Shown: positions 41,334 to 61,884 of the stretch, one piece after another
How positions within the stretch are numbered: position 1 is the stretch's first letter
How the letters are laid out: every line of letters starts with the position of its first letter
Assembly (NCBI RefSeq): GCF_003347515.1
Contig: NZ_QEII01000322.1
Coordinates: forward strand, 62,001-126,000
DNA length: 64,000 nt
From: Rhodoferax ferrireducens
GTDB lineage: Bacteria > Pseudomonadota > Gammaproteobacteria > Burkholderiales > Burkholderiaceae_C
Direction: 5' to 3'
Program-made: the position numbers and the translations under genes
Notes under the pieces: generated by a model
What the model was told of the DNA's origin: nothing
Database searches by the model: none
Seen by the model: only the letters and a program-made list of their open reading frames with translations

Positions 41334-43556
41334 ATGAAAAATCTCTCGAACGAGGCCGTCGCCGCGCTGGCCCGTGCGATCGGGATCGACGCACAAGAGA
41401 TCACCCAGCGCAAGGCATTCCTGAAGTTCGACGAAACCGATGTCAACTTGCTCACGGAATTGCACGCACGTCTGCACGATGTGTCGCAGCACTTCGTGGA
41501 CGACTTTTACACCCATCTCATCAAATTCGAGGAAACCCGCCGCTTCGTCCCGGATTCACCTTCCCTTGAGCGCCTGAAGCGCTCCCAGGCGACCTACTTC
41601 GACAGCCTGACCGCCGGCGACTACGGCCCCGAATACGTTCTCCAACGCCTGCGCGTAGGCGTCGTCCACCAGCGCATCGGACTCGAACCCAAGTGGTACC
41701 TCGGCGCCTACAGCAAGTACCTCGTTGGGCTGCTGCCCGAGCTGTGGCGCTTACTTGGCGACGACCCGGAAAAGTTTCTCGCCACCTACCACGCGCTGCA
41801 GAAGATTGTGTTCCTGGACATAGGGTTTGCCCTCGACACCTATATGCAAGCCGGCCGGCATACTATTCTCGGCCTCAAGCGCTACGCCGAGAACATCATT
41901 GCGAGCCTGCCCGCCGGGCTGATCGTGGTGAACGACACCCTCAAGGTGCGAAGCATCAACCGCTCCTTCCGCGAAATGTTCGGACTGAAAAACGGAGAAG
42001 ACGTTTGCGGGCGCGAACTCGAAGACATCCTGCCGCTACCCGATCTACGCCAACAGGCACAAGCCGTCCTCGCCAGCGGGATGGCCTTGCGCGGCATTGA
42101 CGTCGCGCTGGGTGAAAAATGGCTGCGACTCACCATCACTGGAATCCGGCTTGCAGAAGAAGAAGAAGAAGAAGAAGAAGAAGAAGAATTGCTGGTCGTC
42201 GTGGAGGACATCACCGAGCTTAAAGTCCAGGCGGCTCATATTGAGCAACTCGCCTTTTATGATCACCTGACCGGCCTGCCCAACCGGCGACTGCTGCATG
42301 ACCGGTTGCAACAAGCACTGTCATTGGGCACGCGCAACCATCTCTACGGTGCTGTGCTGATGCTCGATCTGGATAATTTCAAACGCATCAACGATACCCG
42401 TGGCCATGATGTCGGTGACCGCCTGCTGGTGGAAACAGCACTGCGCATCCAGTCCTGCGTGCGCCAGGCCGACACGGTCGCCCGTCTGGGTGGCGATGAG
42501 TTCATCGTCGTGCTGGTTGATTTGAGCGCGGATGAAGCGCAGGCCGCACTGCAGGCGGAGGGAGTCGGCAAAAAGATTCTGGCAGCCATCAACCAGCCTT
42601 GCATGCTGGCAAACCAGCTTCACCACAGTTCTGCCAGCATGGGGCTGTGCCTGTTTCTGGGTCAAAACGCCACTCTCGATGAGCTGCTCAAACGTGCTGA
42701 CAGCGCCATGTACCAGGCCAAAAGCAGCGGGCGCAATACCCTGCGCTTTTATGACCCGCAAATACAGGCCTCACTGGAAACACGCATTTCACTGGAGTCC
42801 GAACTGCGCAACGCCCTGGCGGGCAGTCAACTCAAGTTGTACTACCAGATACAGATAGACAACACGCAGGGTGTCCTGGGCGCCGAAGTGTTGCTGCGTT
42901 GGCAACACCCCCAACGCGGCCTGGTATTGCCCGATCAGTTCATTCCAATAGCGGAAGAAACAGGACTCATCCTGCCGATTGGCGAATGGGTATTACGCAC
43001 AGCGTGTGAGCAGCTGAAGGTCTGGGCGACTGACCCGGTGACAGAAAAATTTGTGCTCGCGGTCAACGTCAGTGCCCGCCAGTTTCGTCAGTCTGATTTC
43101 GTCTCCATGGTGTGCCAGATATTGGCGCAAACCGGCATCAACCCGGAAAAACTCAAGCTGGAACTGACCGAGAGTCTGGTGCTGCACAACGTGGTTGACA
43201 CCATCGCCAAGATGAAGGCATTGAACCAGCAGGGCATCCACTTTTCAATGGATGACTTTGGCACCGGTTATTCCTCGCTGTCGCAGCTGACGCTCTTGCC
43301 CATTCAACAACTCAAAATTGACAAGAGTTTTGTCAGCAACATTGACACGAACCACAACGACGCCATCGTCGTACAAACCATCATTGGCATGGCCAACAAC
43401 CTGGGGCTGCGCGTGATTGCCGAAGGCGTGGAAACGCAGGAGCAGCGCGCCTGCCTTGAACGTTTTGGCTGCCAGACCTACCAGGGCTATCTGTTCGGCA
43501 GGCCCGTGCCCTTGCGCGAATTTGAAAAACTGGCCATGCAGGGCATCACTGCCTAA
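41334..43556 (+). CDS. Globin-coupled PAS-GGDEF-EAL protein
   Basis: 740-aa c-di-GMP enzyme. Residues about 25-165 are a sensor globin (RVGVVHQRIGLEPKWYLGAY with the likely haem His), so oxygen or NO is the probable signal. A PAS domain (about 180-290, ASLPAGLIVVNDTLKVRSIN) follows, with an 11-Glu run at residues 275-285. The GGDEF domain has RQADTVARLGGDEF, including an RxxD I-site. The EAL domain has GAEVLLRW (EVL in place of EAL, Glu kept), MDDFGTGYSSLSQL and VIAEGVET. Both activities look possible. The (CAAG)8 tract upstream may tune expression. Confidence 0.93.
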   Translation: MKNLSNEAVAALARAIGIDAQEITQRKAFLKFDETDVNLLTELHARLHDVSQHFVDDFYTHLIKFEETRRFVPDSPSLERLKRSQATYFDSLTAGDYGPEYVLQRLRVGVVHQRIGLEPKWYLGAYSKYLVGLLPELWRLLGDDPEKFLATYHALQKIVFLDIGFALDTYMQAGRHTILGLKRYAENIIASLPAGLIVVNDTLKVRSINRSFREMFGLKNGEDVCGRELEDILPLPDLRQQAQAVLASGMALRGIDVALGEKWLRLTITGIRLAEEEEEEEEEEELLVVVEDITELKVQAAHIEQLAFYDHLTGLPNRRLLHDRLQQALSLGTRNHLYGAVLMLDLDNFKRINDTRGHDVGDRLLVETALRIQSCVRQADTVARLGGDEFIVVLVDLSADEAQAALQAEGVGKKILAAINQPCMLANQLHHSSASMGLCLFLGQNATLDELLKRADSAMYQAKSSGRNTLRFYDPQIQASLETRISLESELRNALAGSQLKLYYQIQIDNTQGVLGAEVLLRWQHPQRGLVLPDQFIPIAEETGLILPIGEWVLRTACEQLKVWATDPVTEKFVLAVNVSARQFRQSDFVSMVCQILAQTGINPEKLKLELTESLVLHNVVDTIAKMKALNQQGIHFSMDDFGTGYSSLSQLTLLPIQQLKIDKSFVSNIDTNHNDAIVVQTIIGMANNLGLRVIAEGVETQEQRACLERFGCQTYQGYLFGRPVPLREFEKLAMQGITA
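42156..42188 (+). repeat. (GAA)11 in-frame microsatellite (11 Glu)
   Basis: Eleven GAA codons inside the PAS part of the globin-GGDEF-EAL gene. Slippage would change the length of the acidic run without breaking the frame. Confidence 0.9.
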
Positions 43557-46079: not shown

Positions 46080-49000
46080 TCAAGCCACCTGTCGCACCTC
46101 TTCGGCATCGACCTTCGCGCTGCCCGCCTCATCCTTGTCAAGGTCAAGCTGCTTGAGCAGCTCTCGCTGACGGGCGAGGAGATTTACCAAACCACCCTCG
46201 TACTCGAACGGCCGGGCCAGTTCCAGCCGGATGTCTTCCAGCCGTTTGCGCCGCACCTCCAACTGCCCCAGCGCGTCGGCGTGGTGTTTGGTCACCGATT
46301 CCAGCGCTGCCAGCAGGCCTGCCACGAGGGCCGGCCCCGTCTGGTAGGGCTCGGCGTTGTACAGGCAATGGCCTGCCAGGTACAGGTTGGGCACTTCCTC
46401 GCCGTGAGCAGCCAGGATGCCCAGGTCGAAGCCAGCAAAGCGGCCAATCACCCGCTCCATCATCCGAATGGAGGTACGCACCTCTTCTTTGGCTGCCTTC
46501 ACCAGACCTCGCAGGGCATCCCCGACGGCATCCGGTCCGGCGATGGGTCGTCCCGCCAATTCCATCGCAATGCCTTGCATGGTTTGCGGCTCAACCCTGG
46601 CCACGTCCTGGGTAGACAACGCTATCTTCTTCTCCAGGGCCTCGATCATCATGGGCAACCGACCCACTTCGCTTTCATTGGCGTAGCGCTGGTTACGCCA
46701 CAGCGAGAACAGCGTTGAGAGCTTGGCCACTTCGGCATCCACACCGGCCTTTTCGATCACCAGCGGATTGCCGGAAGCCAGGGCTTTCACCTCGGCATAC
46801 GACAGGGTCGCTAGTTCCACGTCCTCCAGCGAGCGGATGCCCTTGTCGCCCTTCATCACCTGGGCAATGAAGCGTGCCTTGGTCTCCAGCGTCTGCCAGA
46901 GGTAGGCATCGAAGCTTTGTTCAGTCACGTACCTGAATATCTCCACCTCCTCGCATTCATTGCCCTGGCGCAAAATGCGCCCCTCTCGTTGCTCGACGTC
47001 ACAAGGACGCCAGGGCGCATCGAGGTGGTGCAGGGCATACAACCGTGTTTGCACATTGGTGCCAATACCCATCTTCGCCGTCGATCCGAGCAGCACCCGG
47101 ACCCGTCCCTCACGCACCGCCTTGAACAGCGTCGCCTTCTGGACGTCGGTGTCGGCGTCGTGCACAAAGGCGATGTCCTTGTCAGGCAGGCCTGCATCGA
47201 TCAGCCGTTGCCGCAAATCGTCATAGACGCTGAACCCTTTACCCCCCTTGGGCGATGAAAGATCGCAAAACACCATCTGGGCACCACGGAAGGTGGACGT
47301 CCTGCGCCAGATGTCCATCACCTCACGCACACAGGCTGCCACCTTGCCCTTGGTATCAAACTTGGCCAGCGGTGCCACCAGCCGGAAATCCAGCGCAGCC
47401 TTGCGACCGTCCGTGGTGATCGCCAGCATGTTGTCGTCCTGCGGCTTCACATCGCCATTGCGGATGGCCTCCGCCCGCAGCACCAGTGTTTGCACAAAAG
47501 CTTTCAGTGCCTTGCTGGCCGGGCAGGCCATGATGCGTGGCTTACCGCCTCTCAATGGTGGCACCGGCAAGTTCAGCATCTCGGCTGTGCGAATGTCGGC
47601 CACTTCGCCGAACACCGCCATCAGCTCCGGCACGTTGATGAAACGCGCAAACCGCGTGTGCATGCGGTAGCCGCTGCCGTCCGGCGCGATCTCAAGTGCC
47701 GTGACGCTCTCCCCGAAGGTGGCGGCCCAGGCATCGAACTGCTGCAAGCCCAGTTCCTCCAGGCGATTGGGCTGCAGGTAGCGCATCATGGTGTGGATCT
47801 CCGCCATGGTGTTGGCCACCGGCGTTGCGGTGGCGAATACCACCCCACGCTGCGCATGGCCATGGATCTGCATGGTGTAGCGCGTCTTCAGGAACAGATC
47901 GAAGGCGCGTTCCGAGCTGGTCAGCGGCAGGCCTGCGACACGGGTCATCTTGGTGAACCGGTACAGGTTCTTATGTAAATGCGCCTCGTCCACGAACAGA
48001 CAGTCAATGCCCAGCAGTTCCCAGGTAAGGAGGTCATCCTTCTTCTGGTCCGCCAGCAGCCGTTCCAGCCGGGCGGCCCAGTTCTTCTTCATCGCCTCCA
48101 GTTGCTTGACGATCCGGTTGGACTTGTCGTTGCTCTTTTCGGCGCGTACGGCCATTTCCAGCTCATGAATGATCTCCTTGATAAAGCCTTCCGTGAATTG
48201 CGGCGACATCTTGATGCGCTCAAAGCTTGAGTGCGTGATGACCACCGCGTCCCAGTTGCCGGTGGCGATGCGCGACACCAGCTCGCGCCGACGGTCGCCT
48301 TCCAAATCCTCCTTGCTGGCCATCAGCACCGACGCGTTCGGGTAGAGCCGAACAAATTCCGCCGTGTATTGCGCCAGCATGTGGTTCGGCACCACATGGC
48401 AAGGCTTCGTGATGAAACCCAGGCGACGCAGCTCCATGCTGGCGATCACGCACACTGCCGTCTTGCCCGCACCGACCACGTGGAACAGTCCGGTGTTGCC
48501 CGACTGCACGATGCGCCAGACGGAATCCAGCTGGTGCGGGTGCAGCGTGAAACAGCGGGAGAACCCCGGCAGCTTCAGGTGGGAACCGTCGAACTGCCGT
48601 GGCCGGGTGGCGTTGAACAGCTCGTTGTAGATGCGGCACAGCCTTTCTCGCCGTGCCGTGTCCTCGAAGGCCCAGTCAGCAAAGCGGTCCTTGATCAGGC
48701 CCAGCTTCTCGCGCGCGGCCAGTGTCTCCCCCGGGTTGACGACATACCTGTCGGTTTCGGGGTCCGGGTCGCGTACCGTGGGTACCTGCACGTTCAGCGC
48801 GCATTGCACCAGCTCCATCGCGTTCATCCGGGATGTACCGAATTCCTGTGTCACTTTCACGTTCTGGCGCGCTGTCCAGTCGTTGTAGCGCACCGACCAG
48901 GCACCGGCCTCGGCCGAATAGCTGACCTCGCAGTCCTGGAGTTCCAGCACGTCTTGCACGAAGCCTTCGACGTCCATGGCTGGAATCCATACCGCACCTA

Positions 49001-51068
49001 GGCGCGGCTCGATGGACGCTGGCGGCAGGTCTTCGGGTTGCACCTGTTCCAGCGCGTTGATATTGCGCCGGTAGGCGCTACCCGACATCACGGCTTGCTT
49101 GAGCTTCGCTTTCACGTTGCCCGACAGGTAGGCGTCGGTAGTTTTCCAGTCAGCGTCCGCCGGGTCGAGAAAGACCTGTCCGGCTTCAGCCAGCGCCTGC
49201 AGCACCGCGTCTTCAGGCGCGGCGAGCAACCCGGCCATGTAAGCTGGATCGACCCGGCCGCGCCATTGGATGGAGGCTGCCAGCGCTTCGGTTGGCTCTC
49301 CCGCCGTGGTCGGCTCCATCACCCGTGTCAGCGTGCGCCGCGTAAACAGCGCCGCCTTCTTGGCGCTGTCCGACTCTTCGTCGTAGTGCTCCAGCGACAG
49401 CAGCAACGGGTAATCCGGGTCACGCCGGAATGCCAATGCATTGGCCCGGGTGCTCAGGCAACCGTATTTGGCAATGAAGCGGTCATAGGTGCCGTTGAGC
49501 AGAGCCCGCAGGTGACCCAGCCGTCCGTCGTTGCTTCCGGACAGCTGGGCATCCAGCAAGGTCCGGGCGTAATCGCGAATCGCACACATACCGGTGATCC
49601 GGCCCCGTTGCGTCGCGTTGAGCCGGTCATGCACATCCGTCATTTCGCTACCGTCCACCCGATGCACCCGCCCCTGGTGGAGGCGGTAGCTGCCGGGGCG
49701 GGCACCGAATTCGGCGGGTACAACGACGCGCAATGGCACAGGCTTTCTCACCAGCGGCTGGTAGACATCGGACGGGAGCAGGGCAACCCGTTCGGGTAAT
49801 ACGGCTTCCAGGTCACCGTCGAACACCGCCACCGGCACTTCCTCGTAGCCGTTGCTCTCCTGCCGAATCCGGCCAATGCAGAACTCCGGGTGTTGGGCGT
49901 ACCAGGCATTGATTTGCAGGTACCTCTGATAGCACTGCGGGTCGCGCAGTGTCTCGGGCACCAGGTTAAGGCTCAGCCAGGTGTCATCGACCTTCTCCGC
50001 CCGCTGCCGCTTGCGCAGGAACAGGATGTCGGTCTGCACGTCGGTGGACGCAATGCCTGCGAAGGCTCCTTTGGGAAGCCGGATCGCGCCCAGCAACTGG
50101 GCTTGTGCGCCGAGGTAGTGGCGCACAGTCGCATCCTGGGCATCCAGCGTGTAGCTGGTGGTAATCAGGCACACCAGGCCGCCGGGCCGAACCAGATCCA
50201 GCGCACGGCCAAAGAAGTAGTTGTGGATGCTGAATCGAGCGTAGGCCCGGTTGCTCACGTCGGCAACCTGGTATTTGCCGAATGGCACGTTGCCGATGAC
50301 CAGGTCGAACCAGTTGTCGGCCAGGGCGGTTTTCTCGAAGGGGGAAATCCGCACATCGACACCACCCAACGCATACAGCGCGTGCAGCATGCGCCCGGAC
50401 AACTGGTCGATCTCGACTGCCGTGACACTGCTGCATTCAGCGATGGCCGGTGGCATGGCACCAATGAAGTGGCCAATACCCGCAGCGGGCTCCAGGATGC
50501 GCCCGCCACTGAAGCCAAAGCGCAGCACGGCCTGCCACATCGCCTCGATCACGTGGACCTCGGTGTAGTGGCTGTTGTTGACCGAGGCACGGGCGGATTC
50601 GTACTCAGCCGGGGTCAGCAGTGCATTCAGCTGCCGTGCGCGGTGACCCCAGGCGGCATCCTCTGTTTCGAGGTTGAAGCTTGCTGGTAAGCCGCCCCAG
50701 CCGGTGTAGCGCAGCAGGGTGCTGCGTTCGTCCGGGGTAGCCGGGCGTTGCTCGGATTCGATCTGGCGCAGTATCTCGATCGCGGCCAGGTTGGCCTCGA
50801 ACTTGGTGACGCTGCCGCCCAGCTTGTACAGCTCGGCGCGGGTCAATTGCGGCCACAGGCTGCGGGTTGCAGTTTTTGCGGTGCCGCTGAGCACACGCCA
50901 GTTGACACGCTGACGGGCGGATTCGACCGACTCATCAGCAGAACTTTCCTCCATTGAAGTGGCCAGTTCAGAAGCCGGCGGTTCGGTCTCGATGACAAGA
51001 GCTGCGGGCTCGGACGGCTCCGGATTGAACCCGGGTAGCCATAGGGAAGGCGCGGTATAGCGTGCCAT
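46080..51068 (-). CDS. Giant N6-methyltransferase-like/SNF2-type helicase protein (DarB-like)
   Basis: 1662 aa from the ATG at 51068. An N-terminal Rossmann methyltransferase domain has RILEPAAGIGHFIGAMP near residue 190 and the motif IV-like VIGNVPFGKY near 255 (NVPF in place of NPPY/F). The helicase part begins around residue 860 with VVGAGKTAVCVIASM, then CLFVDEAHLHKNLYR near 1021, FATATPVANTMAEI, and DVEQREGRILRQGNE near 1360. A helical tail follows. Such fusions occur on phages and integrative elements; phage P1 DarB protects incoming DNA from restriction. A defence-evasion role is inferred. The ribosome site is masked by leader B. Confidence 0.85.
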   Translation of the reverse strand: MARYTAPSLWLPGFNPEPSEPAALVIETEPPASELATSMEESSADESVESARQRVNWRVLSGTAKTATRSLWPQLTRAELYKLGGSVTKFEANLAAIEILRQIESEQRPATPDERSTLLRYTGWGGLPASFNLETEDAAWGHRARQLNALLTPAEYESARASVNNSHYTEVHVIEAMWQAVLRFGFSGGRILEPAAGIGHFIGAMPPAIAECSSVTAVEIDQLSGRMLHALYALGGVDVRISPFEKTALADNWFDLVIGNVPFGKYQVADVSNRAYARFSIHNYFFGRALDLVRPGGLVCLITTSYTLDAQDATVRHYLGAQAQLLGAIRLPKGAFAGIASTDVQTDILFLRKRQRAEKVDDTWLSLNLVPETLRDPQCYQRYLQINAWYAQHPEFCIGRIRQESNGYEEVPVAVFDGDLEAVLPERVALLPSDVYQPLVRKPVPLRVVVPAEFGARPGSYRLHQGRVHRVDGSEMTDVHDRLNATQRGRITGMCAIRDYARTLLDAQLSGSNDGRLGHLRALLNGTYDRFIAKYGCLSTRANALAFRRDPDYPLLLSLEHYDEESDSAKKAALFTRRTLTRVMEPTTAGEPTEALAASIQWRGRVDPAYMAGLLAAPEDAVLQALAEAGQVFLDPADADWKTTDAYLSGNVKAKLKQAVMSGSAYRRNINALEQVQPEDLPPASIEPRLGAVWIPAMDVEGFVQDVLELQDCEVSYSAEAGAWSVRYNDWTARQNVKVTQEFGTSRMNAMELVQCALNVQVPTVRDPDPETDRYVVNPGETLAAREKLGLIKDRFADWAFEDTARRERLCRIYNELFNATRPRQFDGSHLKLPGFSRCFTLHPHQLDSVWRIVQSGNTGLFHVVGAGKTAVCVIASMELRRLGFITKPCHVVPNHMLAQYTAEFVRLYPNASVLMASKEDLEGDRRRELVSRIATGNWDAVVITHSSFERIKMSPQFTEGFIKEIIHELEMAVRAEKSNDKSNRIVKQLEAMKKNWAARLERLLADQKKDDLLTWELLGIDCLFVDEAHLHKNLYRFTKMTRVAGLPLTSSERAFDLFLKTRYTMQIHGHAQRGVVFATATPVANTMAEIHTMMRYLQPNRLEELGLQQFDAWAATFGESVTALEIAPDGSGYRMHTRFARFINVPELMAVFGEVADIRTAEMLNLPVPPLRGGKPRIMACPASKALKAFVQTLVLRAEAIRNGDVKPQDDNMLAITTDGRKAALDFRLVAPLAKFDTKGKVAACVREVMDIWRRTSTFRGAQMVFCDLSSPKGGKGFSVYDDLRQRLIDAGLPDKDIAFVHDADTDVQKATLFKAVREGRVRVLLGSTAKMGIGTNVQTRLYALHHLDAPWRPCDVEQREGRILRQGNECEEVEIFRYVTEQSFDAYLWQTLETKARFIAQVMKGDKGIRSLEDVELATLSYAEVKALASGNPLVIEKAGVDAEVAKLSTLFSLWRNQRYANESEVGRLPMMIEALEKKIALSTQDVARVEPQTMQGIAMELAGRPIAGPDAVGDALRGLVKAAKEEVRTSIRMMERVIGRFAGFDLGILAAHGEEVPNLYLAGHCLYNAEPYQTGPALVAGLLAALESVTKHHADALGQLEVRRKRLEDIRLELARPFEYEGGLVNLLARQRELLKQLDLDKDEAGSAKVDAEEVRQVA

Positions 51069-51132
51069 GGGTGTGTTCTCCAAAAAATGGGGAACACAGC
51101 CACCCACTGGGGAGACGTGCTCCCCGGGTGGG
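51069..51132 (-). promoter_or_regulatory. Structured leader B (radC-motif-like) of the methyltransferase-helicase
   Basis: CCCAC/GTGGG enclose GGGGAG/CTCCCC with a CACGT loop (51103-51132). Then GTGTTCCCC (51089-51097) faces GGAGAACAC (51073-51081), which holds the ribosome site next to the ATG. Confidence 0.7.
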
Positions 51133-51580
51133 AATGAATGAGAGGGTCAGGAATGACCCCCGTGTGTGAATGCGAGCACGCCGGGTTTCGGGGGAAGCTG
51201 GCGGGCTCAATGGGCTATGGAAAAATGAAACGGTCTGCCGTCAGACGACAGCAAGCGGATGTCTCAAGTGGGGCAAGAACCCAGGTGCCAATGACAGCCG
51301 CAGGGTGCAGCGCCAATAGGGAAGGCGGGTAACGACCGCAACGCCTGAGCAGACTCAGGGGCGCTCCGACGAGCGCGCTTTGGCCGAGGCCAAGATGCGG
51401 GATCAGTGTGACCTTATTGAAAGGAGGGCGCGAGCGTTTTGGGTGAATCGCCAGCACAATCGTCGAGAAATACGGAGGACTTCGGGTGGCAATTGCTTGG
51501 CTGGAATGTTCGCCGGTGGTAAGTCGCGAGAACGGAGGCGTATTTGGGGCTTCTGGTACATTCGAAAAAAAGGGGGCTAA
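51133..51580. other. Intergenic region between the helicase gene and the NA37-like gene
   Basis: Contains copy 3 of the 22-nt repeat (51324-51345). No coding sequence supported. GC falls towards 51580, marking the start of a lower-GC cargo (51581-53652). Confidence 0.4.
51324..51345. repeat. 22-nt repeat motif, copy 3
   Basis: GGCGGGTAACGAC followed by CGCAACGCC; three mismatches from copy 2. Confidence 0.45.
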
Positions 51581-52669
51581 ATGGAACTGGTGAACTTGCA
51601 GTTGTCTCGTGTCGTAATTCACGAGGTTTTTCAAAGGGCCGACGACAAGAAAAAAATCCCGCCGGTGTACGGCGATTCAGTTGAAAACCTCGACCTGGAA
51701 GCGATGGACGCACTCCGCAACAGAGTTGTTGCCGCGATGTCCAGTCCTGCTCGGTGCATTCAGATGACTATCGAGAAAACACAAGTCGGTAGCATGTGCT
51801 CGTTCGCCTCAACGCTCGTGGACGCGGACGAAGCGTTGTACATCCAGCAATCGCGGGGTGTGGCTGACCTTCTGGCTGATGCCCAGAAGTTTCGTAACCT
51901 TCCAGGCGGGATTGTTGTCGTTTTTGTAGGAACTGCAGGCGTGCCTGCCAGACGGCTGATGGGTGTCATCAAAGCTGAAGTGCACAATGGGTTCACACGC
52001 GAACAGCAGCAGCAGGGTGGGCTCGCATTGAAGTTCCTGAAGAACTTGCTTCTTACCGCGCAGACAAAGTTGTACAAGATTGGACTCTTTGTCGAGTCGG
52101 ATCCTGCGGCCGCAGGCGGGTTGCCTGCTGGCTGGGATGCCTACATTTACGATGAGACGCTGACCCTTGCCAACCGATATGGCGCAGCGCAGTATTTCTA
52201 CGAAGGATTTCTGGGTTGTCAGTTCCCGCAATCCAGCGCTCGTCAGACCAAGCAGTTTCATGATTTGACCAAGAGTTTCATTCGTTCGATGAGTATTCCC
52301 GAAGAGGAGCGCGCCGTGTTGCACAACGCGCTGGTCACGTATCTCAAGGCGGACCAAACACCTACAGTCAGTGTTGCAGATTTTGGTCAAAGCTATTTCG
52401 CTGAAGGTGAGATTCGGGACGCTTATGGCACGCACATGACGACCGCTGATTTCCCCAACACGGCCGTAAATAAAGACTTGGCTGACGTGAATGTGTCACT
52501 GCGCCTTCGGAAGCTGACGTTCAAAAATCAGATTAAGGTGACCGGGCCGGCCGAAGGCTTCGAAGACCTGATGAAAATTGACATCATCGATGGAGTGCCA
52601 CCGGGACCCAACGGGCCTCCGAGATGGACCATGCTAACGGTTAAAGCAGATATCGCGAACCAGGAATGA
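51581..52669 (+). CDS. Nucleoid-associated NA37/YejK-like protein
   Basis: 362 aa. SMCSFASTLVDADEALYIQQ, GGIVVVFVGTAG and ALKFLKNLLLTAQTKLYKIG resemble the NA37 (NdpA/YejK) family of nucleoid-associated proteins; the match is by eye. The start at 51581 has GGGGG upstream. It overlaps the RelA/SpoT-domain gene by ATGA (52666), so the two are made together. GC is lower than the backbone on both sides. As part of this pair it may sense DNA state or foreign DNA; that is inference. Confidence 0.65.
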   Translation: MELVNLQLSRVVIHEVFQRADDKKKIPPVYGDSVENLDLEAMDALRNRVVAAMSSPARCIQMTIEKTQVGSMCSFASTLVDADEALYIQQSRGVADLLADAQKFRNLPGGIVVVFVGTAGVPARRLMGVIKAEVHNGFTREQQQQGGLALKFLKNLLLTAQTKLYKIGLFVESDPAAAGGLPAGWDAYIYDETLTLANRYGAAQYFYEGFLGCQFPQSSARQTKQFHDLTKSFIRSMSIPEEERAVLHNALVTYLKADQTPTVSVADFGQSYFAEGEIRDAYGTHMTTADFPNTAVNKDLADVNVSLRLRKLTFKNQIKVTGPAEGFEDLMKIDIIDGVPPGPNGPPRWTMLTVKADIANQE

Positions 52670-53652
52670 ACGAAGCGGAATTTCTCGCGAAGTGGCAATC
52701 CGAGGAGCCCATCTATCGGGCATGGGGTAGCTTCGTGCAGGAAGAAATCGAACGTACTTTGCAAAACACCAGTCCATCTGTTGATTTGCAGTCCTTTCTG
52801 AAAATTCCGCCACAACCGCGGCTGAAAACGGTTGACTCATTGATTGGCAAGGCCTTTCATAGAGGTAAACCGTATCAGGACCCGTATGCCGACATTGAGG
52901 ATAAGGTTGGACTTCGCTTCGTGGTTCTTCTGACGGCTGACATCCTCAAACTGAAAGATGTCATAGAGTCATCGGATCGTTGGTCGTGGAGTCTTGACAA
53001 AGATTTTGAGGCTGATCGTGATTCTCGTCCGATGGAGTTTGCATATCAATCCAAACACTATGTGTTGAAAGCGGCGTCTGATACACAGACTGCTGGATTG
53101 GTCGTTCCGAAGGGCACGCCGTGCGAAATTCAGCTTCGCACGCTTTTGCAACATGCGCACTCTGAACTCACGCACGACAACATTTACAAACGCGATCCCG
53201 GCACCGAGATAACCAAAAAAATCGAACGAACGGTTGCCAAGAGCATGGCGTTGATTGAGGCGGTTGATGATTTCTTCGCACAAGTTCTGGATGAGCTGGA
53301 AAAGTCCAGCGAAGCAGAAAGAAATGCGTTGACAGACTTGTCTCAACTGTATGTTCAACATGTCGGTAGGACTGCGCACGTTGATAAATCGAATGCAATT
53401 GTTCTGCACGCGTTCAGGGACCAGCTTGGAAATACGTTTCGCCCCAGATTGGAGGCGCTACTTGCGTCGAAGCCATTCATTGCTGAGCGCATACGGGATC
53501 GTTTTGGAAGTCAATATACGTTTCGCCAAGCTTGGATTCTTCTCGCCTATCTTGTGGTATCGGAAATTCCAAATGTCACTGCGGAGCGGTGGCCACTGAC
53601 GGTTCAGGAGATTGAGCCGGTGTTCACAGACATGGGGAAAACCATCACGTAG
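52666..53652 (+). CDS. RelA/SpoT-domain nucleotide pyrophosphotransferase-like protein
   Basis: 328 aa. Synthetase-domain signs: RLKTVDSLIGKAFHRGK, then DIEDKVGLRFVVLLTADI (residues about 56-95), the G-loop-like EFAYQSKHYVLKA near 125, and CEIQLRTLLQHAHSELTHD near 152-170, matching the E.Q.RT...H...E.. motif. There is no HD hydrolase domain and no TGS/ACT region, so it is of the small-synthetase type with a roughly 140-residue C-terminal extension. It could make (p)ppGpp/(p)ppApp or modify tRNA as toxSAS proteins do. It is coupled to the NA37-like gene. Confidence 0.8.
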   Translation: MNEAEFLAKWQSEEPIYRAWGSFVQEEIERTLQNTSPSVDLQSFLKIPPQPRLKTVDSLIGKAFHRGKPYQDPYADIEDKVGLRFVVLLTADILKLKDVIESSDRWSWSLDKDFEADRDSRPMEFAYQSKHYVLKAASDTQTAGLVVPKGTPCEIQLRTLLQHAHSELTHDNIYKRDPGTEITKKIERTVAKSMALIEAVDDFFAQVLDELEKSSEAERNALTDLSQLYVQHVGRTAHVDKSNAIVLHAFRDQLGNTFRPRLEALLASKPFIAERIRDRFGSQYTFRQAWILLAYLVVSEIPNVTAERWPLTVQEIEPVFTDMGKTIT

Positions 53653-53703
53653 CTTGGGTGACATTGGCGACCACGGGCGTTGACCCAGAGCCAGGGCCGC
53701 GAG

Positions 53704-54033
53704 TCAGCTCAGGTGCAGATTCACCAGCCGCATCATGGGCTGAGTTAGGGTCTTTTTGGCTTCTGTCGCGAGCTGCACTGTTCGACCGCCGGTAAAGCGC
53801 AGTTCGCCTTGCTTATCGTCGAACCACAGCAGCCCCTCTTTGAATGTCCGTTGCCGTTGCGGGCCATCGGCCATGTCCACGAACTGAAGCACCGTGACGG
53901 TCGTTTCCTGTATCCACAGCCATTGGTACACCGTGGTTTTGGGTGTATCTGCTGGCAGGTCCAATCGCTTGATCTCCGCGAGATACCCTTGTGGTGCCGA
54001 AAACAGGAGCAGGACTTCGTACAGCGGTGGCAT
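53704..54033 (-). CDS. Unknown 109-aa element protein
   Basis: Best start is the ATG at 54033, giving MPPLYEVLLLFSAPQGYLAE and QWLWIQETTVTVLQFVDMAD; an upstream extension is Pro/Ser-rich and less likely. Beta-rich, with GLLWFDDKQGELRFTGG near the end. It is divergent from the ParB-like gene. No family is recognised. Confidence 0.5.
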   Translation of the reverse strand: MPPLYEVLLLFSAPQGYLAEIKRLDLPADTPKTTVYQWLWIQETTVTVLQFVDMADGPQRQRTFKEGLLWFDDKQGELRFTGGRTVQLATEAKKTLTQPMMRLVNLHLS

Positions 54034-54218
54034 GGATAGTGACGGCGGGGGTGGAGCGGAAAAAATACGTTGAATTCGGGTTGAAATTTGGCGCACGATT
54101 TTCCGTGGGACATGGCGCGATGCTATCGCACAGTGGGCTTGAAGAACGCGCAGCGCATGAGATTCTGAAGGCATGGGCAGCACGTCGCTGGTCCCTTTTT
54201 AACCCTTCAGGAGTCTCC

Positions 54219-56279
54219 ATGAAATTCTCGAAAGCCGAAATCGAAGCCGTCATCGAAGCATCCCCCCGCACCACCATCCCCTTCAACAAGTTGATCTTGT
54301 CGGTGACCTACCAGGCGCGCCCGGCTGGCAGCACGTCGAAGTTGAGCATCGCCGAACTGGCAGCATCCATCAAGGAAAGCGATGTCCTGCAAAACCTGAT
54401 CGTTGTGAAGGGCGCACGCGGTCTATTCGAGGTTTGTGCAGGCGGTCGCCGTCTCGAAGCACTGGCCCTGCTGGTCATGAACGGCGACATTCCCGACAAC
54501 TACCCTGTGTCCGTGTTGATCGTGCCCGCCGACAAGGCCCTGATCGCTAGTCTTGCGGAGAACTGCTTCCACATTCCCATGCACCCGGCTGACGAATACA
54601 CCGCCTTTGCCAAGCTGACGGCCCAGGGCAAGTCGGTTGAAGACGTAGCAGCAGCCTTCGGTGTCACGCCGTTGGTGGTCAAACGTCGCATGAAGCTGGC
54701 CACGGTCTCTCCCCAACTGATGGCTCAGTTCCGGGAAGACAAGATCGGTCTGGACTGCCTCATGGTGCTGGCCTCGGTGGATGACCACGACAAGCAGGAG
54801 CAGACCTGGGCCGGTGTGCCGACCTGGAATCGTCGCCCCGACTACCTGCGCCAATTGCTCACACAGGGCGAGATTGAGTCTGACCGCGACCCGGTGGCCA
54901 AATATGTGACCGTCAAAGCGTATGAGAAAGCCGGTGGCACCCTGCGCCGCGACCTGTTCAGCGACGACGACAAGAAAGCCTACCTGCTGGATGCAGCACT
55001 GCTGGAGAAGCTGGCGACCGACAAGCTGCAGAAAAAGGCCAAGCAGGTCGCCGCTGATGGCTGGAAGTGGGTTGATGTCCGTGTCCGCTACAACTACGAT
55101 GAATTCGTCAAGTACGGCGCACTGCGTAAAATCCGGCGCGAGCCGACCGAGCAGGAAGCCGCCGGTATCGCTGAGCTCCAAGCCAAAGCGACAGCGCTGT
55201 ATGACCAGATGGAAGCCCTGGCCGAAGCAGAATCGGATGAGAGCGATGAAAACGTCGAATACGACAAGCTCGAAGCCGAGTTTGAGAGTTTGCAGGCGCA
55301 GATCAAGGCACTGGAAGACACCCTCAGCGTCTGGCCCGCCGACCTGATGGCCCAGGCCGGGTGCGTGGTTTATGTCGGCAGCGACGGCGCAGCGGCCCTC
55401 AAATGCGGCTTAGTTCGCCCCGAAGACCGCAATGACATGGTGCAGGCGGCGCGGCTGACAGGCGAGGGTGGTGACGATGAATCTCTGGTGTCGCTGCCCT
55501 CACCCAAGACCCGACCCATCCATTCCGACAAGCTGATGCGCCGACTTACCGCCCACCGGGTTGCTGCAGTCCAGGCCGAACTGATTGACCGACCCGACGT
55601 GGCGCTGGTCGCGATTACGGCCCATCTGGCCGGGAAACTGCTGATCGACAGCTACCGCCGCCACTACGGCAGCGACGATGTTTTGACGGCGAGCGCGACC
55701 AACACGCATGCAAGCCTGCCATCCGAAGCTGATGACATGAAGACCAGCGCCGCTTGGCAGAAGATGGATGCAGAGCGCGCAACCTGGGCGGCACGACTGC
55801 CGGAATCGGTGGATGCAATCTTCCCGTGGGTGCTGGCGCAGGAACCCATCACTGTGCAGCAATTGCTGACCTTCCTCATTGCTTCGACCGTCACCGGTGT
55901 CTACGGTGTGGAGCGCAGCAAGCAGAGCATCGATGCGCTGGCCGTAGCGCTGGGGCTGGACATGAGTAAGTGGTGGTCTGCCACTGGTCCATCGTATTTC
56001 AACCACGTGTCCAAGGGCCGCATCCTGGAGGTGGTAACGGAAGCCGTCGATGCCAATGCGGCCAGTCCGCTGGCCGCACTCAAGAAGGATGCGGTGGTGA
56101 TGGGGGCCGAGCAGACAATAGTGGGCACGGGCTGGTTACCCACCGTGCTACGGGTCGGGATGCCTGAGAAGGTCAACCCGTCTGGAGATAGCGACGAACC
56201 GCCTGTGACGCATGGTGAAGAGCATGTGGAACCGGACGGCGCAGCACAGCGGGCGCAGGAGCCCGCATTGGCCGGGTAA
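54219..56279 (+). CDS. ParB/RepB/Spo0J-family protein
   Basis: 686 aa from the ATG at 54219 (CAGGAG upstream). ParB N-terminal domain at residues about 20-110 with LSIAELAASIKESDVLQNLI and VCAGGRRLEALALL, then VEDVAAAFGVTPLVVKRRMK as the HTH. An acidic coiled coil lies near 300-365 (AELQAKATALYDQMEALAEA). The long C-terminal part is variable. Proteins of this size on integrative elements and plasmids are thought to act in partition or regulation; no parA is adjacent. Confidence 0.88.
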   Translation: MKFSKAEIEAVIEASPRTTIPFNKLILSVTYQARPAGSTSKLSIAELAASIKESDVLQNLIVVKGARGLFEVCAGGRRLEALALLVMNGDIPDNYPVSVLIVPADKALIASLAENCFHIPMHPADEYTAFAKLTAQGKSVEDVAAAFGVTPLVVKRRMKLATVSPQLMAQFREDKIGLDCLMVLASVDDHDKQEQTWAGVPTWNRRPDYLRQLLTQGEIESDRDPVAKYVTVKAYEKAGGTLRRDLFSDDDKKAYLLDAALLEKLATDKLQKKAKQVAADGWKWVDVRVRYNYDEFVKYGALRKIRREPTEQEAAGIAELQAKATALYDQMEALAEAESDESDENVEYDKLEAEFESLQAQIKALEDTLSVWPADLMAQAGCVVYVGSDGAAALKCGLVRPEDRNDMVQAARLTGEGGDDESLVSLPSPKTRPIHSDKLMRRLTAHRVAAVQAELIDRPDVALVAITAHLAGKLLIDSYRRHYGSDDVLTASATNTHASLPSEADDMKTSAAWQKMDAERATWAARLPESVDAIFPWVLAQEPITVQQLLTFLIASTVTGVYGVERSKQSIDALAVALGLDMSKWWSATGPSYFNHVSKGRILEVVTEAVDANAASPLAALKKDAVVMGAEQTIVGTGWLPTVLRVGMPEKVNPSGDSDEPPVTHGEEHVEPDGAAQRAQEPALAG

Positions 56280-58071: not shown

Positions 58072-59025
58072 ATGAGATGCGATTTGAACGCGAAAGTGAG
58101 TGGGCGGGCGGGCGGCGCATTCTTACCCACCAGCCCGTTCCTGGCCGTTTGCTCCGTCGCAACGAAATATCAATGCGACATTGCCATACCCAATGTCACG
58201 GGAATCGGCGACGTGCTGATGTACACAAGAGTCGTAGAAGAACTAGCCATGCGGAAGGGCCGTCCGCTCAACATCCTGACGGGACGGATGGTGCCGATAG
58301 ATGTCGGAACTGTGGACGACGAAGAGGCTTACCCGATATGGAAAGCAAATCCATTCGTAAACAAGATCGTGGATGCGCAGGCCATCGCACCGGGGCTTCT
58401 GCAGGAGATCAATGCAGTCCACGAGAACCATTGCCAGTTTGGCCACATGATTTCCAACATCTGTGCGGAGTACGGGCTGGTTCCCAGGATGCTACGGCCA
58501 AGCCTTTATCTAACGGAAGCCGAATGCCGGGAAGCGCTGCTGAGGCTTGCAGACCTTCCCCGGCCGATACTCTGCGTGCACCCTTACGGCACCAGCTCTC
58601 CGATGGAAAACCATCCCTGGTACAAACAGGAATGGATAAAGCTGATCGATGAACTGCCATCGGGTTTTTCGGTCGTCGAAGTGGGCCTGCATCCCCAGGA
58701 GAACAAGTCGCTTCCGACAAAAAGATTCCGGACGACTCTGCGCCAGATGATGGCAATCGTTTGGGCATCTGATCTGTTTGTGGGATTCGACAGTTCCGTG
58801 GCTCATGTTGCGACGGCCTTCAGCAAGCCAGCGATGGTTCTGTGGGACCCCATTCGCAAAAATGAAATTGACGAACGGGTGCAGCCAGGCTTTGGACCCG
58901 CCGCGTTTTCCCGTTGGAGCTACCCACAGAACAGGAATGTGATGCTGCTCGGTGAACGGAACGGAGAAATCCGAAAGCTCGCCCTCAGCTGGATTGGCGA
59001 GTTCCATCGTTCAATAGGCACCTAA
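58072..59025 (+). CDS. Glycosyltransferase family 9-like protein (heptosyltransferase fold)
   Basis: 317 aa. The N-terminal IPNVTGIGDVLMYTRVVEEL and the C-terminal LCVHPYGTSSPMENHPWYKQ, IVWASDLFVGFDSSVAHVAT and KPAMVLWDP are like ADP-heptose:LPS heptosyltransferases (GT9). It is smaller and diverges in the middle. It has AGGA before the ATG. The 3' end overlaps the STAND gene tail to tail by 15 bases. No other LPS gene is near, so it may glycosylate something in a defence or interbacterial system. Confidence 0.7.
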   Translation: MRCDLNAKVSGRAGGAFLPTSPFLAVCSVATKYQCDIAIPNVTGIGDVLMYTRVVEELAMRKGRPLNILTGRMVPIDVGTVDDEEAYPIWKANPFVNKIVDAQAIAPGLLQEINAVHENHCQFGHMISNICAEYGLVPRMLRPSLYLTEAECREALLRLADLPRPILCVHPYGTSSPMENHPWYKQEWIKLIDELPSGFSVVEVGLHPQENKSLPTKRFRTTLRQMMAIVWASDLFVGFDSSVAHVATAFSKPAMVLWDPIRKNEIDERVQPGFGPAAFSRWSYPQNRNVMLLGERNGEIRKLALSWIGEFHRSIGT

Positions 59026-61884
59026 AACCAATTCAAGGTCTCCACATTTCGCGTACCGATTGCCGTTCGCCCTTGATCCGCCCGGTAAAAGCAGTTCGGG
59101 CCGTAGGCAACTGAGAGCCAGTTCACTCATCCCCAACCTGGGCGCAATCGTCGCGATGTTTCCCAATATTTCGAAGAACACGCCGCAATATTCTGGAGGA
59201 CTGCCTGGCTTGAAAAGCGGTGACTGTTCGACGGCCAACTTCTTGGCAGCATCGCGACACTCATTGAGGGCCTTTGGCACTAACCGCGTCATGCGCTCAA
59301 CTGCCTCAAGCAATTTTTCAAACTCGTCGATGAAGGCAGTGAGGCGCGTCCTGGCTTGGTCAAGATTTCCCTCCAGAAAGGAAAGAAGCAGCAAATCGTT
59401 GAGAACCGGCAATTCGAATTCGTTCAGGTGGTACAAGTTGACCAAGGTGGAAGTCCGCTCTATCCATTGACGGGCATTCACTAGGTCGCCTGCTCGTAGA
59501 TAGAGGGAGCCTCGCAGCAAACTAGCCCGAGTCAGGACTTCTGAAAATCTGTTTTGCGAAGAAGTCGTCCACAGCTGGCTAAAGGAGTTCAGATCGAGCT
59601 CGCCTCCCATGTGGAGGCTTTCCAAAACAAGTATGTCAAGTACGTTATATGAGCGCTGACACTCATCGCTCGCTAGGTCGACGCCTTGGCGGAAAAGGGA
59701 AAGCGCAGTATCAGGTTCAGCATGCGCGTAGAGGGCACCCATCTCCGAACAAATGACAGCGCCCTCATTTTCCCGAAGGCCTTCCCCGATGTAGTTAAAC
59801 GCCAACTCCGAAAACTCGAATCCAGCTTGGGGATATCCAAACCGGGCACAGAAAAGTACCAACCTGTTAACTATTGAATTGAAAGTGACCGGTGTTTGAC
59901 GGCGCTTTAATACGGCTATCGCATTGTTGAGGAATGCCAGCGGCTCCATCAGTTCAAGGTCAATACCGATGGCGCGCCGGTAGGCATCCGTGGCGATTGC
60001 TTCCGCGAAGCTGAAATCCCCTGTCGCTATCTGCTGAGCTTCATGGGCAAGTAGGAGATAACGCTGACGTGCAACGAGCAGCGAATCGGAAACCCATTCC
60101 GCCCAAGCCAAGCCACTCATCAAGTCGAGCCGCTCTTCAGCGTTGGAAGACTTGGGCAACAGGGCAAGAAGTTGGGCCAGGAAGGACACGAGATGCCCGT
60201 AGTCGCTGGCTTCCTTGGCGGCTTGGACGCCCAATCGTAGTTCCACCTCCAAGGCAACGCGGTCTGCTATCACCGAAAAAATTCGCGCGCGCAGGTATCG
60301 AATTTGGAGCTCATTTTCTTTGTTCACGGCCAAGACAAGCCTATCCGCAATCTCCCTAGCGGACACAACGAACCTCTGATCTTCTCTCGCCACCGAAATC
60401 ATCGCGGTTCGCAGCAAGTCGTGGCGAAACACGATCTCCCCGTCAGGACGCCAATACCCGAGGTTGCCAGCATCCACCGCCAACTGGATCGCGCGTAACC
60501 GCTCAGGAGAAATGCTTAAAGCTTCCAGGATGAATGATTGACTCGTCGCACTGTCGGTCACCGCAACCAATCCCAATTGGGTCGCCACCATATTCGCATC
60601 GTCGCCAAAGGTTTTCTGAAGCCATGTGCGCATCCGGTCTTCCAGGATGAGTGCGCCGCTGACTGGAAGCGTGTCGGAAAGAACTTGCGCTGGTTGGCTA
60701 ATAGAAAGTCGCGGCGGATTGCCTCGATCCCACACAACGAAGCCAAGGTCGAGCAGACGACACAGGTAGGATTCCAGGAAGAGCGGCAGTCCCCCAGTTC
60801 GTTGCATCAAACACGCCGCGATCTCCGGGGTGACGTGGCGAAAAATCTTTGCCGCCGTGGCCGACAGCTCACCTTGGGTCAATGGGACCAACGGCTTCGT
60901 CAGCAACACCCGGCGAATTCTCAGCTTGATCTTTGTGACCAGCGACTTGATTGCTTCGTTAAGGGTTGCATCGGGCTGGCGATACTCCAGGACGAGCCGT
61001 ACGCCGCCCCAGCCCGCGTCATTGAGCGCAACGACTAGCGCCCATATCTGATTTGCAACCTGCGCATTCAGGAGCTGGCAGTCTCGCAATACGATCACTC
61101 TTGGTCCCATGCGGATGGCGACTCGGGCCAGCAGGCCCACGTTGGCTTCCAAGTTGCCGGCATCCAACTCATCGGAGAGAAGCACCTTCTGGACAGCCTG
61201 AGCAACCTCCTGAAAGCTTTTTTGATGTATGGAGGGCGTGAGGCACGCGCGGAGCAATGCGGCTAAAAGGTGTCCTTGATGCTCATCGGTGACAGTGAAC
61301 GACACGACATCGAAGCCATACTTTGTCCGCAGCGCTTCAGCCGCCCGTTCGACGAAATGCGTCTTGCCCACGCCAGCTTCTCCGTCGACCAGCACCAGTC
61401 TATGCAACCCGGACGGGCCAATCTGCCGACACATGTCACCAATCTCTTCTTGACGCAGTTCCGGTAGCACTGCAACGAAGCCTTCCACGCGGAGCTCACC
61501 AACTGGAATCCGTTCCTCCATCACACCTGAAGAGATTTTCAGACTCGCGCGATAAATCTGATCAGCATCCAGACACGCCGTGTCGATGAGATAGGTATGT
61601 CTCGTAGCGGCAGACTCGTCATGTTCAATCGAACCTGCCGCTGTCCAACTGCCTTCTGGGATACCGACAAGTTCGATATCGCCAACACGCTGGCTCGGGT
61701 ACTCCAGGACTACCAGCAATAAACAACCCTTTCGAACGAAAATTTGCCGGTTGGACTGCGCAGATGATGCAATCTCGGTCTCTGAGAATCCAGAACATTC
61801 GGTCATCCACCACGATACCTTGGCGTTTTCATCTCCTCGCTCGGAGCCACCCTCATTTCCTTTGTGGATGACCGTCGCGCTCAA
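59011..61884 (-). CDS. STAND-type P-loop NTPase with helical repeat C-terminus
   Basis: About 957 aa. Walker A VDGEAGVGKTHFVERAAEAL near residue 170, Walker B-like RVIVLRDCQLLNA near 270, and the GxP signature QRTGGLPLFLESYL place it in the STAND/AAA_16 group. Residues about 600-950 form an alpha-solenoid of TPR type. The N-terminal 130 residues are beta-rich (a possible sensor or effector). TTG at 61884 is the first usable start, ATG at 61806 another; the frame stays open back to a stop at 62083, so the N-terminus is uncertain. Likely a signal-dependent regulator or defence protein. Confidence 0.75.
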   Translation of the reverse strand: MSATVIHKGNEGGSERGDENAKVSWWMTECSGFSETEIASSAQSNRQIFVRKGCLLLVVLEYPSQRVGDIELVGIPEGSWTAAGSIEHDESAATRHTYLIDTACLDADQIYRASLKISSGVMEERIPVGELRVEGFVAVLPELRQEEIGDMCRQIGPSGLHRLVLVDGEAGVGKTHFVERAAEALRTKYGFDVVSFTVTDEHQGHLLAALLRACLTPSIHQKSFQEVAQAVQKVLLSDELDAGNLEANVGLLARVAIRMGPRVIVLRDCQLLNAQVANQIWALVVALNDAGWGGVRLVLEYRQPDATLNEAIKSLVTKIKLRIRRVLLTKPLVPLTQGELSATAAKIFRHVTPEIAACLMQRTGGLPLFLESYLCRLLDLGFVVWDRGNPPRLSISQPAQVLSDTLPVSGALILEDRMRTWLQKTFGDDANMVATQLGLVAVTDSATSQSFILEALSISPERLRAIQLAVDAGNLGYWRPDGEIVFRHDLLRTAMISVAREDQRFVVSAREIADRLVLAVNKENELQIRYLRARIFSVIADRVALEVELRLGVQAAKEASDYGHLVSFLAQLLALLPKSSNAEERLDLMSGLAWAEWVSDSLLVARQRYLLLAHEAQQIATGDFSFAEAIATDAYRRAIGIDLELMEPLAFLNNAIAVLKRRQTPVTFNSIVNRLVLFCARFGYPQAGFEFSELAFNYIGEGLRENEGAVICSEMGALYAHAEPDTALSLFRQGVDLASDECQRSYNVLDILVLESLHMGGELDLNSFSQLWTTSSQNRFSEVLTRASLLRGSLYLRAGDLVNARQWIERTSTLVNLYHLNEFELPVLNDLLLLSFLEGNLDQARTRLTAFIDEFEKLLEAVERMTRLVPKALNECRDAAKKLAVEQSPLFKPGSPPEYCGVFFEILGNIATIAPRLGMSELALSCLRPELLLPGGSRANGNRYAKCGDLELVLGAY

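Follow-up and report, generated by a model that had tools for sequence, protein, structure and literature searches.

A YejK-like protein gene coupled to a RelA/SpoT-type small synthetase gene on mobile elements: a candidate defence or toxin module

Why would a gene for a relative of the nucleoid-associated protein YejK overlap a gene for a small RelA/SpoT-type synthetase? This question is raised by a stretch of 64,000 nucleotides of Rhodoferax ferrireducens (GCF_003347515.1, contig NZ_QEII01000322.1, positions 62,001 to 126,000), hereafter the window. RelA/SpoT-class synthetases are proven effectors of phage defence, hence the interest of a YejK-type partner. A sequence-only reading of the window had described a nucleoid-protein-like gene overlapping a small RelA/SpoT synthetase gene by ATGA. 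Indeed, both open reading frames (ORFs) and the overlap are present, and both proteins have Pfam matches above the cut-offs. The features are as follows, in window coordinates:

51581..52669, + strand: upstream gene 1, NA37/YejK-like protein (hereafter NAP), ORF of 362 aa
52666..53652, + strand: downstream gene 2, RelA/SpoT-type small synthetase, ORF of 328 aa, whose helical C-terminal extension starts near residue 215
52666..52669, + strand: ATGA stop/start overlap of the two genes, read from the sequence

The pair is probably a defence or toxin system that has not been described previously. With somewhat better than even confidence, we take it for a two-gene module of abortive infection or superinfection exclusion, organized like a toxin-antitoxin system, in which NAP would both restrain and trigger the synthetase; the complex, the DNA binding, the inhibition, the trigger, the product and the defence itself are all steps that we infer.

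The coupling of the two genes is far above chance. Searches were started with NAP in plasmid records and in genomes of the order (399) and of the class (369), and with the synthetase in viral contigs and 398 genomes of the phylum. On the NAP side, five of the 399 genomes match, that of the window included, and the other four all have an adjoining synthetase gene. Four of the 369 genomes match, again including that of the window; both strong matches among the others are paired and a weak partial one (L086, E 1e-4) is unpaired. All five matches in plasmid records are paired, one of two similar Neisseria records having been opened. On the synthetase side, a profile search of viral contigs gave 69 loci, and a NAP ORF adjoins upstream in 67 of them, shortened or split in four (L015, L046, L047, L080). 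In the two exceptions (L049, L077), the synthetase gene stands at the start of the contig, so that they are not assessable for a partner. In the phylum, 135/398 genomes have some synthetase match, mostly to weaker relatives, and both further matches that are strong and full-length (L087, L088) are paired. Hence, the neighbourhood search proposed by the sequence-only reading finds the two genes together from either side, and the doubt that their homologues might never co-occur falls away. Outside this family, none of the 27 next-best, distant synthetase loci (L089-L115) has a NAP gene within a flank of about 1.5 kb or less. In a named phage collection, two synthetase queries gave partial matches in 2 and 5 records, and neither of the two records opened has a NAP-type gene. 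Synthetase relatives of like length also occur solo, in a filamentous phage of Vibrio and a prophage of Mycobacterium (L165, L118).

Gene geometry was measured on 83 pairs, Escherichia coli and Rhizobium loci included, which form 69 clusters at 90% identity; two Rhizobiaceae pairs added later bring the number to 85. The genes overlap by four bases in 37/83 pairs and by one base in 24/83 (61/83 together), and all lie within 60 bases of each other. Across 54 loci, the identity matrices of NAP and of the synthetase correlate with r = 0.92 (permuted maximum 0.19, 2000 permutations), and the nearest neighbour is the same for both proteins in 33 of the 54. The pair reaches as far as a Streptomyces plasmid (L013), for which an exchange of the effector was considered and dropped, the neighbour labelled “hypothetical” being a RelA_SpoT protein. 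In a tree of the synthetase domain built by a quick method, 29 paired rows, Streptomyces included, lie on one side of a branch (Shimodaira-Hasegawa-like approximate likelihood ratio test, 91). Three Rhizobiaceae pairs (L120, L163, L164) stand elsewhere in this tree, on a long branch (two changes). They are short forms, with a diverged NAP, a 203-aa synthetase devoid of the C-terminal extension, and overlapping start and stop. When all 32 paired rows were constrained together, the likelihood improved by 7.0 units (approximately unbiased test, p-AU 0.67), and a single origin of all pairs is therefore possible. An independent second coupling in these Rhizobiaceae plasmids was dropped on the same grounds, the constrained tree being better and one origin not being rejected. 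The annotated neighbours of the short-form pairs include a gene of the DarT family at L120, an AbiJ-NTD4 protein at L163 and, at L164, a protein with a TIR domain. In a 2.2-Mb Neisseria gonorrhoeae record filed as a plasmid (L011), the synthetase is split in two ORFs and the NAP start is disturbed as judged by eye, as if the pair were decaying.

As judged from its sequence and its predicted structure, the downstream gene encodes a small synthetase of RelA/SpoT fold with conserved active-site motifs. The protein matches Pfam RelA_SpoT over residues 52-177 (48.1 bits, E 1.6e-12, cut-off 27) and belongs to PHROG 32462, a family of unknown function (E 1e-75). It also resembles the PADLOC candidate PDC-S33, weakly (E 1.7e-7, 29 bits, residues 50-228), while NAP has no match among PADLOC models; in NCBIfam, neither protein gives anything above cut-off. 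An alignment of 57 members has 19 invariant columns, and its motif positions line up with those of RelQ, whose motif residues we take to be catalytic. R52, K54, K62, D79, R84, Y127, H131, E154, Q156, R158 and H170 are present in 57/57; the key residues, the loss of which had been the other doubt of the sequence-only reading, are thus kept across the family. The structural model has a predicted local distance difference test (pLDDT) score of 95.6. Its best structural match is RelP (6ewz, Z 18.9, root-mean-square deviation (rmsd) 3.0, 197 residues), followed by RelQ (Z 18.7), CapRel (13.4), Tas1 (10.9) and FaRel2 (8.0). Taken together, the RelQ and RelP structures score Z 16.4-18.9 over 184-197 residues, and the CapRel structure aligns with model residues 1-203. 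The C-terminal part is helical, with 111-132 residues and few strongly conserved positions (the best being G324, Y295, W309 and P310); it lies outside the structural matches, an absence that is uninformative since the extension was not searched by itself.

What would such an enzyme modify? CapRel and FaRel2 are tRNA-modifying relatives (PMC9712102; PMC11559606; here and below, publications are cited for the parts of them that were available). A profile built from the 57 members recovers CapRel at E 1.6e-6, over profile positions 31-167 only, and RelQ and RelP at E 1.4e-17 (RelQ) and 4e-13 or better. In both sequence and fold, the synthetase is nearer to the alarmone synthetases RelQ and RelP than to CapRel and FaRel2. 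The net charge of the N-terminal 44 residues, which serves as a proxy only, is negative in 46/57 members, zero in 4/57 and positive in 7/57. Because of this mostly negative N-terminus and of the closeness to RelQ and RelP, an alarmone product is slightly favoured over tRNA modification. It is unlikely, in our estimate, that the pair is instead a toxic small alarmone synthetase (toxSAS) module whose synthetase, as CapRel and FaRel2 do, pyrophosphorylates the 3′ ends of tRNA and whose YejK-like protein is an antitoxin or sensor of a new type, a reading that differs from ours only in the product. It can call on the recovery of CapRel by both sequence and fold, and on prophage toxSAS modules that confer defence (PMC9712102; PMC11559606). 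However, FaRel2 reaches only Z 8.0, and it carries a K28/R29 basic patch for tRNA (PMC11559606) that contrasts with the mostly negative N-terminus seen here. Moreover, a YxxY motif is found in the C-terminal part of only 9/57 synthetases, so that a C-terminal switch of the CapRel type was rejected. The sequence-only reading had proposed an alarmone-type or tRNA-modifying defence or toxin system; its candidate status stands, given the coupling and the conserved motifs, with the enzyme leaning to the alarmone side and the tRNA-modifying side less favoured.

The upstream protein is, on its predicted structure, a distant member of the NA37/YejK family. NAP exceeds the Pfam NA37 cut-off (31.4 bits, E 1.7e-7, cut-off 24.6), with only residues 199-275 aligned, and so do its homologues L003, L009 and L013; it falls in PHROG 1974, a family of unknown function (E 3e-37). 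The solved structure closest to its AlphaFold2 model (pLDDT 86.8) is E. coli YejK (9be2), with Z 14.2 over 309 aligned residues and model residues 4-362; the superposition has a high rmsd of 10.4, probably reflecting domain placement, and about 11% identity. Next come two chains of KwaB, from Kiwa, over residues 1-213 (Z 5.7 and 5.5), a range below 8 in which Z can reflect merely a common arrangement. H14, R48, K131, K166, D191, A203, Y205, F206 and F268 are invariant in the 54/54 aligned NAP sequences. E. coli YejK binds DNA (PMC10561277), and by analogy with this fold NAP may bind DNA as well. NdpA/YejK genes are also carried by two Pseudomonas phages (PMC10305613). A housekeeping YejK identity was rejected for NAP because it is the only NA37 match in the genome of the window. 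Besides the pair, this genome encodes two RelA/SpoT enzymes of the long type and a further small synthetase, located at C311:37359-37889 (367-aa frame).

In the module that we favour, the synthetase would be the effector, moving pyrophosphate from ATP most likely onto a guanine or adenine nucleotide and not onto tRNA. NAP would bind the synthetase and hold it inactive, and, as it is built like a DNA-associated protein, it is proposed to report a change in the state of the DNA or the nucleoid caused by infection. Co-translation via the ATGA overlap would keep the levels of the two proteins matched. By halting cell growth once a competing phage is sensed, the module would protect the element that carries it, whether prophage, plasmid, island or integrative element. 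Such a role in defence is supported by the coupling, the gene overlap, the conserved motifs, the YejK and RelP folds, the neighbourhoods with phage and defence genes, and the precedents of Phrann gp29/gp30 and of DefensePredictor. The first of these precedents is a prophage (p)ppGpp synthetase with its partner, which protects against other phages (PMC9262239). In the second, dated 2026, a YejK nucleoid-associated domain is one of those whose part in E. coli defence was newly validated, within an anti-phage operon (PMC13092281); it is the nearest published counterpart, and could be the same system as the pair or a different one.

The pair can be compared with known systems. The toxSAS modules (PhRel:ATphRel, which is Phrann gp29:gp30, FaRel2:ATfaRel2 and the fused CapRel) are alike in having a RelA/SpoT domain with a partner, in prophage carriage and in proposed abortive infection (PMC9712102; PMC11559606; PMC9262239). 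They differ from the pair, in which the partner has a YejK fold, the synthetase is nearer to RelP and RelQ, and YxxY is infrequent. In the publications consulted, the partners of defence RelA/SpoT synthetases are binding antitoxins or hydrolases (PMC9712102). RelQ (YjbM) and RelP (YwaC) have the same fold and the motif positions are conserved, whereas the synthetase of the pair is longer by about 115 C-terminal residues, is encoded beside a partner gene and lies in a mobile context. E. coli YejK, or NdpA (PF04245), has its fold in common with NAP, which differs by its low identity and is not a housekeeping protein. The likeness to KwaB of Kiwa is weak and concerns the N-terminal half of the NAP model, and the partner enzyme is different. 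In the partial literature collection available, no publication describing the NAP/synthetase pair was found.

Where the pair is carried bears on what it does. Its carriers are prophages, plasmids, tRNA islands and stretches rich in defence genes. In 42 of the 67 viral-contig pairs, an ORF of at least 90 aa lies on the same strand within 400 bp upstream; seven of these ORFs belong to the phage repressor family phrog_4, two to integrase families and two to methyltransferase families. The remaining 25/67 loci have no such ORF within this distance, and upstream genes are variable. At six loci selected for their repressor, 56 ORFs were scanned, repressors included, and replication initiators, a DnaB helicase, a DnaC-like loader, CII-like activators, integrases and a Sak4-like protein were found; because phage replication, integrase and CII-like genes flank these loci, some copies are prophage-borne and lie in the lysogeny region. 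Superinfection-exclusion genes are expected in this region, as exemplified by rexAB of lambda. One ORF of the repressor-locus set matches phrog_3767, a nucleoid associated protein, and a second NA37-like protein, with a weak match to the family profile, lies on the same viral contig as the pair at L073:10077-11084. At a threshold of E 1e-15, the 69 flanking ORFs (150-1500 aa) around eight pairs from genome assemblies matched 115 PADLOC families, against five families for 117 ORFs of eight control stretches, where families and not ORFs are counted, one ORF can match several families, and three of the eight genomes supplied the controls. The families listed include type III and type II methyltransferases, PDC-M01A/B, TmtA, MkoB and PDC-S22. 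In Trinickia terrae, the pair has an hsdR-like gene (1042 aa) and an integrase-like one as neighbours, both named by eye.

These contexts also bear on two other explanations, none of the rivals considered here being mutually exclusive. The pair could be a plain toxin-antitoxin module, its YejK-like protein serving as antitoxin and nothing else, and retain the mobile element in the cell without any anti-phage role. The order of the genes, antitoxin first and overlapping, the presence on plasmids and islands and the existence of broken copies (N. gonorrhoeae L011, and L080) would all suit stabilization of this kind. We nevertheless hold it improbable, since the partner is a structured 362-aa protein with invariant residues of its own, larger than usual antitoxins, and since PADLOC families are commoner in the flanks of the pairs than in the controls. 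Less probable still is a regulator of the prophage itself, the pair tuning lysogeny or induction through an alarmone and nucleoid binding and having no part in defence. Repressor and CII-like genes do adjoin the pair in several phage-like contigs, but the pair also has copies on plasmids, on tRNA islands and within groups of defence genes.

Several points weigh against a defence module as we propose it. Since upstream genes vary and 25/67 viral loci have no near ORF, the repressor-side position is one context among several. The ten ORFs near the pair in the window have no PADLOC match at E 1e-5, and the named phage collection searched with NAP gave no match at E 1e-3. The pair is rare, with the five genomes out of 399 in the order and 3/5426 complete E. 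coli genomes. As both proteins are acidic (isoelectric points of 5.7 for NAP and 5.6 for the synthetase), non-specific DNA binding is not favoured. The correlation of the identity matrices shows joint inheritance and not binding. No autoregulatory inverted repeat was found upstream of the pair. Finally, we know of no YejK-fold antitoxin.

In some operons, a third gene encodes a SLATT/DUF4231-type membrane protein. On a Klebsiella pneumoniae plasmid, in the two distinct loci of E. coli and in certain viral contigs, it stands directly upstream of the pair; at L054, it stands directly downstream. Among eight such proteins used as seeds, five exceed the Pfam cut-off for DUF4231 (L009, L025, L035, L116, L054) and three match below it (L029, L072, L117), L117 being annotated as SLATT by NCBI. 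A crude hydropathy scan gives one or two membrane segments to each seed. The profile built from the eight seeds matches near 11/83 pairs, seeds included, the other three being L032, L088 (on the opposite strand) and L051, which nearly duplicates L035. The remaining 72/83 pairs, among them the type of the window, have no SLATT match nearby, and the window ORFs give no match to the profile at E 0.1. All three pair-bearing E. coli genomes carry the SLATT-type gene, and in the two loci opened a tRNA-Thr gene and an integrase gene lie beside the operon. SLATT proteins are needed for DRT10 defence and are predicted pore formers (PMC12632851, a preprint). Systems such as DRT10 have the SLATT/DUF4231-type gene in common with these operons, in which the enzyme beside it is instead a RelA/SpoT synthetase. 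The membrane protein may be an added effector or sensor in the operons that have it. By analogy with the cyclic-oligonucleotide-based anti-phage signalling system (CBASS), it is tentatively conceivable that the pair represents a new nucleotide-signalling immunity, in which a DNA-bound protein of YejK fold would sense the replication of a phage or damage to the nucleoid and switch on an alarmone synthetase whose product would arrest growth and, in these operons, also gate the SLATT membrane effector. A Kiwa-like system, in which the YejK-like protein would be a KwaB-related effector that binds DNA and the synthetase and SLATT-type protein would be regulators, is very unlikely: KwaB chains take the two places behind YejK among the structures matched by the NAP model and a membrane protein occurs in some operons, but such Z values may mean a common arrangement only and the membrane gene is present in so few of the 83 operons.

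In the window itself, the pair forms an insert of low GC, absent from one related element. The surrounding features are:

51346..54207, no strand: approximate inserted cassette, the pair and flanking bases, missing from the related element L157
53704..54183, - strand: ORF of 159 aa within the cassette, from the ORF call, without an assignable function and of uncertain status as a gene
46080..51107, - strand: left flanking element gene, 1675 aa, with an Eco57I-type methylase match (Pfam Eco57I, E 5e-7)
54210..56279, + strand: right flanking element gene, ParB-N-like (Pfam ParB_N, E 4e-5, 24.0 bits, slightly below the cut-off of 26.3)

The left gene, with its Eco57I motif, is presumably akin to DarB-type helicases. 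The ParB-N-like gene has homologues, 57-66% identical, in the 7/7 related stretches fetched, and L157 is the only one of the seven that also has the left gene (72% identical). The two flanking genes are 449 bp apart in L157 and 3102 bp apart in the window. Since a 24-bp match between the two stops at position 51345 and matching restarts at 54208, the insert is placed at about 51346-54207, with borders that are rough because a single relative is available; the six other stretches are uninformative on the insertion site, as the left gene is not seen there. The proportion of guanine and cytosine (GC) is 0.533 in the NAP gene and 0.492 in the synthetase gene, compared with 0.624 in the left flank and 0.609 in the right flank; at third positions, the pair has 0.61 and 0.52 against 0.78 and 0.74 in the flanking genes. 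The description of the pair as a lower-GC cassette between two element genes, also given by the sequence-only reading, is therefore borne out by the measured contrast and by the spacing in L157. The 159-aa ORF has no PADLOC match and no tblastn match at E 0.01 in the collected loci. A scan for promoters and terminators gave signals no commoner than in shuffled sequences.

Two further proteins of the window were observed in passing. At 59011-61884 (- strand), a 957-aa protein matches AAA_16 (E 3e-7) and NACHT (E 7e-4), both below cut-off, and has no PADLOC match at E 1e-5; from these domains, it could be a defence protein of the STAND type (signal transduction ATPases with numerous domains). 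At 41334-43556, left of the 1675-aa element gene, lies a Protoglobin-PAS-GGDEF-EAL protein that, from its domains, is likely a gas-sensing cyclic-di-GMP enzyme.

If the pair is a defence module as proposed, proteins of YejK fold would gain a clear setting, and the state of the DNA or of the nucleoid would be suggested as a trigger of alarmone-type immunity. PHROG 1974 and PHROG 32462 would each gain a function. Finally, the operons that carry a SLATT-type gene raise the question of whether an alarmone can drive a membrane effector.

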